In this document: in pieces, positions 33,695 through 38,080 of the stretch
Position numbering within the stretch: the first letter of the stretch is position 1
How the letters are laid out: each line of letters opens with the position of its first letter
DNA from: Rhizobiales bacterium 62-17
GTDB lineage: Bacteria > Pseudomonadota > Alphaproteobacteria > Rhizobiales > Beijerinckiaceae
Assembly: GCA_001898965.1 (NCBI GenBank)
Contig: MKVW01000009.1
Location: forward strand, 1,148,964 to 1,212,963
Direction: 5' to 3'
Length of the DNA: 64,000 nucleotides
Program-made: the position numbers and the translations under genes
Notes under the pieces: model-generated
Told to the model about the DNA's origin: nothing
Seen by the model: the letters and a program-made list of their open reading frames with translations, nothing else
The model's database searches: none

Positions 33695-34030
33695 TCAGTA
33701 TGTCTGGCCGAGATAGTCGGCAATGGCTTTCGCGTCCTTCTCGTCGATCGGCGCCTTATAGACTTTGATCATCTTCTGCACCTCGGCGTCCCAGAAGGCA
33801 TGCCCCTTCTTGGAGGGCTGCGAGTTGATGTAGTCGAGGGAATGGCAAGCCACACAGTTGTTTTTGGCAGCCTCGAAGCCAGGTTCGGGGCCCGGCTTGA
33901 GAACAGCCGTTTCGTCCGGCAGTTGATAGGTCTTGGGAGCGGCGGATGCGGTTCCGAAACTTGCAAGTCCGACATTTGCAAGCGCGAGAACAAGCGCGAC
34001 ACCGAGCCTGCGGGAATGGCGAGTGATCAT
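33695..34030 (-). CDS. Monohaem c-type cytochrome subunit of sulfite dehydrogenase (SorB type)
   Basis: 111 residues from the ATG after GGAGGGATATCATC. Sec signal of about 30 residues, then a single haem motif CVACH near residue 60 and probable axial Met in EVQKMIKV. Size, haem count and place directly after the molybdopterin subunit (14-base gap) match SorB, which takes electrons from SorA and passes them to the respiratory chain. It is the last gene of the operon. Confidence 0.85.
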   Translation of the reverse strand: MITRHSRRLGVALVLALANVGLASFGTASAAPKTYQLPDETAVLKPGPEPGFEAAKNNCVACHSLDYINSQPSKKGHAFWDAEVQKMIKVYKAPIDEKDAKAIADYLGQTY

Positions 34031-34044
34031 GATGATATCCCTCC

Positions 34045-35262
34045 TCACGCGGCCGTGACGCGCGTCGTCTCGACGACGTTGCGCATGTAGCCGGATGGAT
34101 TCCAGAGCGGCTGCATCGGTTGCGACTTGCCTTTGGTATTGGTGGCCTTGACCATCAGCTTCTGCTCGCCGGCAGCGACGGCGACATCCGCTTTCCATTC
34201 GCGGAAAGAATATTTGCCGAGATTCTTGCCGAGGCGGGCCTTGACCCATGATTGGCCGCCGTTGCCGGAAACCTGAACTTCGGCAATACCGTCGCCACCG
34301 TCGAAAGCGATGCCGCGCAGCGCGAGTTTACCGGTCTTGACCTTCGCTCCATCCGGCACGTTGGTGATGAACGAACGCACATTGAAGCGGTTGATCGGAA
34401 TCGTCGCGATGGGCGCTTTTCCGGGCTCGACGCAGGCACACTCATTGTCGGGGATTCGATAAGCGGTCTTCATCCAGAAACTGTCGAGTTCCTTGTCGAG
34501 CACCGTGATCTCGTTCAGATGCTTGACCCAATAGGTGCCGTAATAGCCTGGCACGATCAGGCGCAGCGGATAGCCGTTGAGCCAGGGCAGATCCGTCCCG
34601 TTCATGGAATAGGCGAGCATGACTTCGCCGTCGCGGGCATGATCGAGCGTGAGCGCCTTGGTGAAATCAGGCGTATCGGGAGAGGCCGGCCCGTCGAGCC
34701 CCGCGAATGCGACTTGCACCGCGCCCGCTTCGACCCCGGCCCGTTCGAGCACGGCCTTCAGGGGCACGCCGCGCCAGCGCGCATTGCCCATGGCGCCGTT
34801 GCCGAGTTGGCCGCCGGCGACGCGCGGCTCGACGAAGCCTCGGCTATTGCCGGAACATTGATTGACCGCAACGACCTCGATCGCCGGGAATGTGTTTCGC
34901 AATTCGCGTAGCGAGAGCGAAAGCGGCTTGGACACCTTGCCCTTCACCTCGAGGCGGAACAGGTCTGGATCGATTTTCAGCGGAATATCGGCGAGATGAT
35001 AGCGAACGAAGAAAGCATCGTTGGGGGTGATGACGCTCTCGTCGAAGACCGAAAACGGCGTCTCCAACTGCGGCGGGCGGGCTGTCTGTTGGATGAGAAG
35101 ACGCTTACCTGGCACTTTGACGAGTTGGCGTTCACCGTTGTCGAAGGGCAATTTGATGGATTCGGCGGCTAAGGCCGAGAGCCGCGAACCACCGATCGCC
35201 ATCGCTCCCAGGCCCAATGCAGCGCTGCCGGCAGATGTCAGCATCTGTCGTCTGTTCAACAT
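34045..35262 (-). CDS. Periplasmic molybdopterin sulfite:cytochrome c oxidoreductase (SorA type)
   Basis: 405 residues from the ATG after GGGAGAAAGACC. A twin-arginine signal (NRRQMLTSAGSAALGLG) fits export of a folded molybdoenzyme. The SUOX-fold Moco domain has the molybdenum-ligand Cys in VNQCSGNSRG, followed by a C-terminal dimerisation (Mo-co_dimer) domain with GGDGIAEVQVS. SorAB oxidises sulfite to sulfate in the periplasm. It precedes the SorB cytochrome by 14 bases. An ECF-sigma gene and its anti-sigma gene lie immediately upstream on the same strand, which, together with known sulfite-responsive ECF control of sor genes in Sinorhizobium, suggests the same circuit here. Confidence 0.88.
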   Translation of the reverse strand: MLNRRQMLTSAGSAALGLGAMAIGGSRLSALAAESIKLPFDNGERQLVKVPGKRLLIQQTARPPQLETPFSVFDESVITPNDAFFVRYHLADIPLKIDPDLFRLEVKGKVSKPLSLSLRELRNTFPAIEVVAVNQCSGNSRGFVEPRVAGGQLGNGAMGNARWRGVPLKAVLERAGVEAGAVQVAFAGLDGPASPDTPDFTKALTLDHARDGEVMLAYSMNGTDLPWLNGYPLRLIVPGYYGTYWVKHLNEITVLDKELDSFWMKTAYRIPDNECACVEPGKAPIATIPINRFNVRSFITNVPDGAKVKTGKLALRGIAFDGGDGIAEVQVSGNGGQSWVKARLGKNLGKYSFREWKADVAVAAGEQKLMVKATNTKGKSQPMQPLWNPSGYMRNVVETTRVTAA

Positions 35263-35369: not shown

Positions 35370-36170
35370 TCAGGCGTCGCAAGCCTGTCCGATATTCGGA
35401 ACGTCCCTGAGGGCTGCGAGCTGCTCCTCGGTCGGCATCTGCTTTTGATGCGTCAACTTGGCAATGAGGTCGGCGAAGCGGTCGAGGCGGGCCGGGTCCA
35501 TGCCCCGGCTGAGCAGCGCATAATCGGCGTCCGGCGTGCTCCAGGCGCGTATGCGCAATCCATCGCGGTCGGCCGGCGATGGCGTCTCGCCCCAGTGCCG
35601 CGAATGGGGCGCCACCCACAGCCCGAGCCGACAGCCGTGCTGTCCGCGATAGCCGGCGAGCAACCCGCCCTCGCGCGACGTCGGGTCGAGCGACAGATAG
35701 CTGAGTTCCAACGCCGAGGCGCGCAGATCGGGAAGACGTCCGATTTGCGCTGAGGGGAGATCGACCTGGATGCGTTGGCCGGGCGCTCCCGCTGGCTGCC
35801 CTGCTATCCAATGACGATGGGCTGCGATCGCCGCGGCGAGTTCGCCGCCCGTCGTTGGCGCCGGATTGAAGAAACGCACGGCAATGAAGCCGATGCAGGA
35901 CACAAGAACCAGAGCGGCTGCCATGGACAAGACCCATTTCGGACGGCGCTGGCGCGGCAATATCAATGCGGGGGGCGGCACCTCGGGGTGTTGGAGCTGC
36001 GTCGTGGCATGGAGATGCGACAGCGTTGCCAAGCGTTCGGCCAGCCGGGGATCACGCGCGATCGCCGCAGCCACCTCGGCCGCTTCGCTCGGGGCAAGCT
36101 CGCCGTCGAAATAGGCGTTCAACGTGTCCCAGGAAATTTCGCCGTTCGAAACTGAATTGTTATCGCGCAT
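35370..36170 (-). CDS. Membrane anti-sigma factor
   Basis: 266 residues. An N-terminal anti-sigma helix bundle (ISWDTLNAYFDGELAPSEA and following) lacks the HxxxCxxC zinc motif of ZAS proteins. One transmembrane helix lies at about 80-98, then a periplasmic domain of about 165 residues with Cys and His. Its start overlaps the sigma gene by 11 bases, the usual sigma/anti-sigma arrangement. It should hold the ECF sigma at the membrane until a periplasmic signal, perhaps sulfite, releases it (inference). Confidence 0.85.
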   Translation of the reverse strand: MRDNNSVSNGEISWDTLNAYFDGELAPSEAAEVAAAIARDPRLAERLATLSHLHATTQLQHPEVPPPALILPRQRRPKWVLSMAAALVLVSCIGFIAVRFFNPAPTTGGELAAAIAAHRHWIAGQPAGAPGQRIQVDLPSAQIGRLPDLRASALELSYLSLDPTSREGGLLAGYRGQHGCRLGLWVAPHSRHWGETPSPADRDGLRIRAWSTPDADYALLSRGMDPARLDRFADLIAKLTHQKQMPTEEQLAALRDVPNIGQACDA

Positions 36171-36732
36171 GTCGGCGCCTCGTTTCGAGGGGCCGCAGGT
36201 TCTCGTGTTCGATGACGGCCAGCAGCGCCTGCCTTGCCCGACTGATGCGGCTCATGATCGTTCCCTGCGGCACACCCAGGATGGAGGCGACCTCTCCATA
36301 GCGGAAGCCGGCCAGATCGACCAATTCAATGATCTCGCGATGGGCGGGTGCGATCTGCTTCAACGCTTGTCGGACAGTGATCTCTGCGATGATACCGTCG
36401 GCATAGCGATGATCGAAGCCGATACCCTCCAAAGCCAAACCTCCTTCCTCTTCCTCATCGAGGTGATGGTTTCGCCGATAGTTATCGATCCAGGCGTTGC
36501 GAACGATTTTAAACAACCACGCGCGCACCGTCTCCGGACGTGGCTGTGCGCTCAACTTCCCGAGAGCTTTGAGGGCGCAGGACTGAAGCAGGTCCGCGGC
36601 TGCGTCGGGATTGTCGGTCAGGCGGAGCGCGTAGGAAAAAAGACTTTTCCAATTGTCACGCAACGCGGCTTCTATGATGTCTCTCAGACCAGCACCTTTG
36701 GTCCCTAGAGCGCTTTCAAGCGAAGCGGGCAC
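36160..36732 (-). CDS. ECF-family RNA polymerase sigma factor
   Basis: 190 residues from the GTG at 36732. Region 2 (SLFSYALRLTDNPDAAADLLQ, AWLFKIVRNAWIDNYRR) and region 4 (GFRYGEVASILGVPQGTIMSR) are intact. There is no ATG in the first 150 residues: the candidate starts are GTG 36732, CTG 36687 and TTG 36663, and none has a clear ribosome site. The first nine codons from 36732 lie inside a palindromic repeat, so the true start may be downstream and the promoter may have been replaced. It likely drives sorAB and itself. The reading frame overlaps its anti-sigma by 11 bases. Confidence 0.85.
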   Translation of the reverse strand: MPASLESALGTKGAGLRDIIEAALRDNWKSLFSYALRLTDNPDAAADLLQSCALKALGKLSAQPRPETVRAWLFKIVRNAWIDNYRRNHHLDEEEEGGLALEGIGFDHRYADGIIAEITVRQALKQIAPAHREIIELVDLAGFRYGEVASILGVPQGTIMSRISRARQALLAVIEHENLRPLETRRRHAR

Positions 36733-36768
36733 CGGTTCGCATGAATAAAACGCGTCAAAACAAGAGCC
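36705..36768. repeat. Dispersed palindromic intergenic element overlapping the sigma gene start
   Basis: The stretch begins CTAGAGCGCTTTCAAGCGAAG, contains CACCGGTTCGC and ends CGCGTCAAAACAAGAGCC. From memory this is a near-consensus copy of a short element scattered in intergenic regions of many Hyphomicrobiales. It covers the apparent GTG start of the ECF sigma gene. A degenerate relative is at 11040-11160. Copy number in the genome was not tested. Confidence 0.6.
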
Positions 36769-36774
36769 TTAAGC

Positions 36775-36803
36775 CCTTCACCGTTTCAAGGAAGCGGTGA
36801 AGG
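36775..36803. repeat. Palindrome adjoining the dispersed element
   Basis: Arms CCTTCACCGTTTC and GAAGCGGTGAAGG, 13 bases each with one mismatch, around AAG. The CGTTTC...GAA core is shared with palindromes at 9725 and 11019. It lies between the carrier-protein ligase stop and the sigma gene and could terminate the ligase transcript, although no T-run follows. Confidence 0.6.
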
Positions 36804-36861
36804 ACAAAGGACATCACGACCGGATGAGATCGTCAACTCAGCCGGCGGACAAGGCTGTCTC

Positions 36862-37812
36862 TCACTTGGGCCACAGCACCTGACGCACCGCCTGTGGCCA
36901 CTGCGCCGTATCGGTGCCGTGATGCTTGAACAGCGCCAGTGCCACCCGCTCCATGCCGAAACCGACGCAGGCCGTATGCGCCACGTCGCCGTTGCTGGTG
37001 GGAATGTTCCACAGCGAGCCGAAATGATCCTGGTGATAGTTGAACGACAGGCAGGCCGTCGGCTTTTCCTCGCTCGTCACCGGGATGAGCAATTCGAACT
37101 TGAGGCCGGTGTCGCGCTGGTTGTTGGCGAGCATACGGCCGGCGCGGCCGAAGAACGGATCATTGGCCAGATCGACTTTCAGCGGCACGCCGAGCGAGCC
37201 CATCATCGCCTGGCCGCGTTCGAGCCAGGTTTCGCGGAAGGCTTGAACCTGTTCGGGCGACCCGATGCGGACATATTCGCGCATCCGGAACATCTGCATC
37301 CGCGCCGGGTCTTTCGAGGGTTCGTGCCGGAAGCAGTAGGACTGTAGATCGTAGAGCCGGCCGTCGACCGGCAACGGGCCGCGCTTGGCGACCGTCGGAT
37401 AAAGTGGATAGCAGGCGGCTGGCGTCAGCACGATGTCGGTCGCGGTCTGCTGGCCGGTCCAATCCTGGCCGGCTTCAAGTTCGGCGAGCAAGGTGCAGTG
37501 GTCGGCTTCACCGCCCATGAAACTGTGCACCGTGCCGGCAAGCTGCGGGAAGCTCTTCATATAGCCGCTCTTCTCGAACAGCGGCCTGGAGATGCCCGGC
37601 GGGAAATGGATCGGCGTGGCGCGATCTTGCGCGCCATAGCGCGTGATCAGCCGGTCGAAAGCCTGAATGACATCTTCGAAGACGTCGGAACGGCCGTAGA
37701 GACCGTCGACGCCGGTGTCGAGGAGAATGCCCTTGTCGAACAATTCGTCGAGATAGGCTTCCTGCGCCGAAACCGGCGAAGTGGACGCGGGGGCAGACGC
37801 GGCAACGCTCAT
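36862..37812 (-). CDS. Amino acid:[carrier protein] ligase (seryl-tRNA-synthetase-like)
   Basis: 316 residues from MSVAAS. Class II synthetase motif 2 is [20 protein letters not shown] and motif 3 is [11 protein letters not shown]. The zinc site of atypical SerRS is present: C134 (TPAACYP), Glu in RMREYV near 179, Cys in HTACVGFG near 282. No tRNA-binding domain exists. The family, characterised in Bradyrhizobium (bll0957 type), activates glycine or alanine with ATP and loads it on a carrier-protein phosphopantetheine, not on tRNA. The carrier gene directly upstream, 22 bases away, is the expected partner. What becomes of the carrier-bound amino acid is unknown. Which amino acid this copy prefers cannot be read. 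Confidence 0.92.
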
Positions 37813-37834
37813 CACTACGGCTCCAGTTGTTCGT

Positions 37835-38080
37835 TCAGGCGGCGGTCTGTGTCAGTTCGGCGATGGCGCTTTGGATCGCCTTGATGCTCGCGAAGGTGCG
37901 GCGGTTGAGCATCTGCTCGGGAAATTCGATGTCGAAGGCGTCTTCCAACGCCAGCATCAATTGCACCGAGGCAAAGGAGGTCAGGCCTGCTTCATGCAGG
38001 TCGGCATCGTCGGACAAGGTCGCGGCCTTCACCGGCAGTTTGGCGGTTTGGTCGAGAATGTCGCGAATTTTATCGTTCAT
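37835..38080 (-). CDS. Dedicated acyl/aminoacyl carrier protein
   Basis: 81 residues, a typical acyl-carrier-protein length. Helix II start [16 protein letters not shown] carries the phosphopantetheine Ser in a LTS context instead of the usual DSL motif, as in carriers that pair with amino acid:[carrier protein] ligases. The gene precedes the ligase by 22 bases on the same strand, so both are one operon. It should accept an amino acid on its pantetheine thiol. The housekeeping fatty-acid ACP would be elsewhere. Confidence 0.9.

Follow-up and report, generated by a model that had tools for sequence, protein, structure and literature searches.

The ECF sigma factor gene in the window, a stretch of 64,000 nucleotides from Rhizobiales bacterium 62-17, probably starts at a CTG codon (36687, minus strand) behind its own Shine-Dalgarno sequence, with a dispersed palindromic repeat lying wholly in its leader, and probably encodes the sigma factor of a sulfite-responsive sorAB system. 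Comparison of orthologous sequences further makes it likely that the weak start codon, CTG or, in part of Bosea, TTG, is an old and maintained feature of this sigma factor subfamily. The best reading of the region therefore appears to be an ordinary repeat next to a weak start codon (CTG/TTG) that is conserved in a sulfite-response sigma factor. The features around the start are as follows.

36160..36687, minus strand: ECF sigma factor gene, 175 amino acids if started at CTG, with Sigma70_r2 and Sigma70_r4_2 domains
36685..36687, minus strand: CTG, proposed start codon of the sigma factor gene; the aligned column is NTG in 27/32 distinct orthologues
36693..36699, minus strand: AAAGGTG, resembling a Shine-Dalgarno sequence, 5 nt upstream of the CTG and not part of the repeat; predicted duplex of -7.9 kcal/mol
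36730..36732, minus strand: GTG within the repeat and earliest canonical start in the open reading frame, judged not to be the start; no Shine-Dalgarno sequence, next codons unconserved
36705..36806: dispersed palindromic repeat in the 5' leader, with a core at about 36705-36768 and a second palindrome at about 36776-36806
36807..36846, minus strand: block conserved with the relative G022, directly upstream of the repeat; local score of 17.5, above 300/300 shuffles; contains TTGACG

Candidate start codons of the sigma factor gene

The open reading frame of the sigma factor on the minus strand extends over 36160-36732 (190 amino acids) when opened at its first ATG, GTG or TTG, the GTG at 36732. 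This GTG and the first nine codons (36706-36732) lie inside the palindromic repeat, as the first-pass annotation of the region had stated, and the frame indeed holds no methionine codon until 'TIMSR' near the C-terminus. The overlap of repeat and gene is probably only apparent, however, with the repeat forming a noncoding part of the leader: its near edge is 17 nt from CTG 36687 and 5 nt from the Shine-Dalgarno sequence, upstream of both.

The annotation had named three options, namely a start and promoter acquired from the repeat, CTG 36687 and TTG 36663, and had seen no good ribosome site before any of them. The latter was mistaken, since AAAGGTG precedes CTG 36687. The predicted duplex with the 16S tail amounts to -7.9 kcal/mol for this codon, compared to -0.8 for GTG 36732 and -2.7 for TTG 36663, and the nearest relatives (G022, L109 and L110) have GAGGTG-5-CTG at the same place, a Shine-Dalgarno sequence one base longer than that of this genome. 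Among the three options, CTG 36687 is thus favoured, and both GTG 36732 and TTG 36663 were rejected on account of their missing Shine-Dalgarno sequences and of the conservation pattern.

We consider it unlikely that the repeat supplied a new start at GTG 36732, which would lengthen the protein by 15 residues, with nine of these encoded in the repeat. This GTG is the only ATG, GTG or TTG upstream in the sigma frame and would be chosen by any gene caller limited to these codons, but the 15 codons between it and the CTG have no conserved counterpart in any orthologue, the older Shine-Dalgarno sequence and CTG are still in place, and only 3 of the 21 repeat copies have CAC, i.e. GTG on the sigma strand, at the corresponding site (alignment judged by eye). 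The annotation had held that orthologues sharing the nine codons would speak against an insertion; no orthologue shares them. Gene callers preferring ATG, GTG or TTG would misplace the N-terminus of this subfamily and, in the present case, place it in a dispersed repeat.

Conservation of the start column among orthologues

The alignment with related sigma factor genes that had been proposed as a check shows homology beginning at the column of CTG 36687. It was built from 24 distinct orthologues of about 50% identity or more, representing 35 loci before removal of near-copies, and a later search added 8 further distinct orthologues to give a total of 32. The start column is NTG in 27 of them (CTG 18, TTG 7, ATG 1, GTG 1). 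In the first set, the count was 22/24 (CTG 15, TTG 5, ATG 1, GTG 1), the two exceptions being L052, with a GTG at the following codon, and L090, with an ATG three codons upstream; in the later set, it was five of eight (CTG 3, TTG 2), and all three exceptions have GTG or ATG within five codons (L115, GTG at the next codon; L137 and L122, ATG three and five codons up, respectively). The Ancylobacter orthologue L040 has ATG where the sigma factor gene of the window has CTG. Left out of these sets were the 19 more distant of 43 distinct loci and the 16 more distant of 24 new distinct loci, in which 9/19 and 9/16, respectively, were NTG at the column and none CTG; the matches G871 and G876 of the genus Bosea are without a locus and stand outside the counts. 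On a tree of the 32 sigma factor proteins, the start label needs seven changes, including CTG nested in a TTG clade.

From the column on, conserved residues are L (20/24), R (19/24) and E (24/24), and before it no residue is common to more than 9 of the 24 orthologues. All 20 leucine codons at the start column are CTG or TTG, compared to 50/72 at three other conserved leucine columns (Fisher p = 0.0026; the orthologue rows are related, so that this and the p-value given below overstate independence and are optimistic). The tests of Shine-Dalgarno sequences, promoters, codon phase and anti-sigma factors were done on the first 24 orthologues or on pairs from them. In 15/24 orthologues, the start column is preceded, at a spacing of 3-11 nt, by a Shine-Dalgarno match of 5 nt or more; at 46 other columns, the mean was 1.07 and the maximum 4/24, with the columns adjoining the start column sharing its peak. 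In close pairs, substitutions by codon phase were distributed 18/4/65 downstream of the column and 17/13/14 upstream of it (p = 1.8e-6). Because of this third-position bias downstream and even spread upstream, the downstream sequence is taken as coding and the upstream sequence as not codon-like; several pairs, including this genome and G022, also differ by single-base gaps upstream of the column. The marks of a gene with a CTG start, i.e. a start column conserved as NTG, a Shine-Dalgarno sequence and non-coding sequence upstream, were all found, and these results suggest that ribosomes use CTG 36687.

It could be argued that the CTG and TTG codons are internal leucine codons and that the true start lies upstream and varies by lineage. 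Canonical upstream starts occur in many loci, e.g. in L032 and L033, where an ATG lying six codons upstream is still a candidate, and CTG is the commonest leucine codon in these genes (48%). We nevertheless regard this as quite improbable: the sequence upstream of the column is without codon pattern, the Shine-Dalgarno peak falls at the start column, and ATG or GTG also occur at the column, including in the distant homologues with their NTG codons and no CTG. Moreover, 4 of the 24 loci (L035, L041, L055 and L056) have CTG at the column and no in-frame ATG, GTG or TTG back to the previous stop, and their next canonical start downstream, 20-46 codons in, would cut the conserved region. A start at TTG 36663, although canonical and a TTG in G022 too, is scarcely credible, since it has no Shine-Dalgarno sequence and would leave out the conserved segment that holds the invariant Glu.

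In L039 (2960-3010), from a Bosea-type metagenome-assembled genome, leuA ends just before an ATG of the sigma factor gene and the usual leader and Shine-Dalgarno sequence are gone, so the gene may be read with leuA. The CTG at the column of L039 is incidental, with no Shine-Dalgarno sequence and an ATG three codons on; this locus is included in the 22/24, which becomes 21/23 without it. An ATG three codons past the column occurs in L109 and L110 as well. Two Bradyrhizobium plasmids (L090 2989 and L091 3010) are near-identical around the sigma start, yet the start is annotated at an ATG three codons before the column in one and at a GTG four codons after it in the other, which shows how unstably this N-terminus is annotated.

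The palindromic repeat in the leader

A count of the genomic copies of the element, as called for in the first-pass annotation, gave 21 matches to 36705-36806 in the same genome at E<=1e-3, itself counted, which exceeds chance. The best other copy is 85% identical over 95 bp. Six other copies align from near 36705 past 36785, and the remaining ones share mainly the core. The palindrome at 36705-36768 recognised earlier is thus real, but the long copies extend as far as about 36806 and the whole element measures about 100 bp. Both of its halves fold into hairpins. Within the genus, 17 of the 51 genomes contain matches; a plasmid search returned four Bradyrhizobium records only and none from Sinorhizobium, and an Rfam search gave no match. 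In being a short mosaic palindrome with many copies and a long form of about 100 bp, the repeat resembles the RIMEs of Sinorhizobium and the Br-REP elements of Bradyrhizobium, as far as described in parts of PMC2573895 and PMC5082802, although its consensus differs from those printed for Br-REP1 and Br-REP2 in PMC5082802.

Upstream of the sigma factor gene, the repeat was looked for in three near orthologues (G022, L109 and L110) and is absent from all of them. In G022, the block 36807-36846 and the Shine-Dalgarno stretch are both conserved (0/300 shuffles as high for each) and the sequence between them is unrelated to that of the window. Since the flanks are conserved and the intervening sequence is not, the repeat seems to have arrived there or to have replaced a spacer. 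The proposal that an element was inserted at the 5' end is supported as regards its arrival, be it by insertion or by replacement; the 5' spacers differ, the junction is not clean, and no clean empty site turned up. The possibility that the spacer of G022 is a decayed copy of the repeat was rejected, because the score of element against spacer was like that of shuffles (159/300 as high).

The block 36807-36846 is a possible promoter of the sigma operon. A scan for the sigma-70 consensus returned no promoter, so the TTGACG-containing block fails it, and one terminator-like site compared to 0.7 expected. The repeat itself would be neutral or a minor modulator of the sigma factor gene, and the case advises caution before an overlap of repeat and gene is read as a newly gained start. 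The minus strand also holds, directly upstream at 36862-38080, the genes of an amino acid--[acyl-carrier-protein] ligase and its carrier protein.

The sulfite-response locus and its regulation

Downstream of the sigma factor gene, the following features were assigned.

35370..36170, minus strand: anti-sigma factor gene, whose ATG overlaps the sigma stop codon
35298..35323, minus strand: promoter motif GGAAT-N17-CGTC before sorA, consensus from PMC6527743
34045..35262, minus strand: sorA, catalytic subunit of sulfite dehydrogenase (NF052245 SorA, 8.1e-208)
33695..34249, minus strand: open reading frame containing sorB, c-type cytochrome subunit (NF052246 SorB, 8.7e-37, residues 103-184)

SorA and SorB pass the curated NCBIfam cut-offs, and the true sorB start lies inside its open reading frame; the anti-sigma factor has weak NCBIfam anti-sigma matches only, under the curated cut-off. 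The order on the minus strand, sigma factor, anti-sigma factor, sorA and sorB, is annotated identically on the two Bradyrhizobium plasmids. Sulfite-responsive pairs linked to SorAB are described, in parts of PMC6527743 and PMC3511301, for SigE of Starkeya novella and RpoE4 of Sinorhizobium meliloti, and PMC6527743, in the portion used here, gives ECF group 26 for the system. The window shares with these systems the order of sigma factor, anti-sigma factor and sulfite dehydrogenase as well as the -35 GGAAT and -10 CGTC elements before sorA, and the ECF sigma factor gene is therefore part of a known kind of sulfite-response (sorAB sulfite-oxidation) locus. Its distribution is patchy, with the sigma factor gene present in 2 of 51 genomes of the genus (E<=1e-30).

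A GGAAT/CGT[CT] motif was found downstream of the sigma factor gene in 24/24 orthologous loci, and the 300 nt before that gene were free of a GGAAT/CGTC motif in all 24. We therefore rejected sulfite autoregulation of the sigma factor; the absence of the motif from these 300 nt agrees with what a part of PMC6527743 reports for S. novella sigE. By analogy to the relatives, in which these steps are known, the overlapping anti-sigma factor would hold the sigma factor, and sulfite would release it for transcription of sorAB from GGAAT-N17-CGTC.

In most of the orthologous loci, the anti-sigma factor gene overlaps the sigma stop codon or lies directly against it. Its start covaries with that of the sigma factor gene, being mostly ATG with CTG and GTG with TTG, a pattern that follows phylogeny (Bosea versus the rest) and is thus confounded and suggestive only. 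As far as parts of the following sources report, CTG does serve as a start in an alphaproteobacterium, if seldom (0.7% of mapped Caulobacter coding sequences; PMC4117421), CUG complexes of E. coli are less stable and initiate poorly (PMC11497404), and weaker start codons of the anti-sigma factor RsbW raise SigB activity in Listeria (PMC13068326). Since CTG is a poor start and the start of the anti-sigma factor is presumably stronger, a poor CTG or TTG start would keep the sigma factor below its anti-sigma factor. It is conceivable, though we advance this only tentatively, that the weak start has been selected as a translational brake that always keeps the anti-sigma factor in excess, switching among NTG codons and staying weak, and that the repeat hairpin may tune it further in this genome. 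If so, start-codon strength would be a conserved means of setting the sigma:anti-sigma ratio. A CTG start in an alphaproteobacterium is common to this gene and the rare Caulobacter cases, as given in part of PMC4117421; unlike in the latter, CTG or TTG appears to have been kept at a single position in a regulator subfamily spanning several genera. Start codons are not discussed in PMC6527743 as far as a term search of its main text showed, and a literature search of partial coverage for conserved CTG starts or CTG starts of sigma factors did not find this case, from which we claim no absence from print.

The sorA open reading frame opens at GTG 35304 (minus strand); the promoter motif and the ATG at 35262 (MLNRRQ...), which carries the Shine-Dalgarno sequence gggag, favour the later start. 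A crude control on sorA starts was decisive in under half of the 24 loci, its motif window being too narrow, and was kept out of the evidence. One genome, G1071, has two copies of the sigma factor locus (C1 259362, L136, and C1 2963673, L150), which around the start differ little or not at all.
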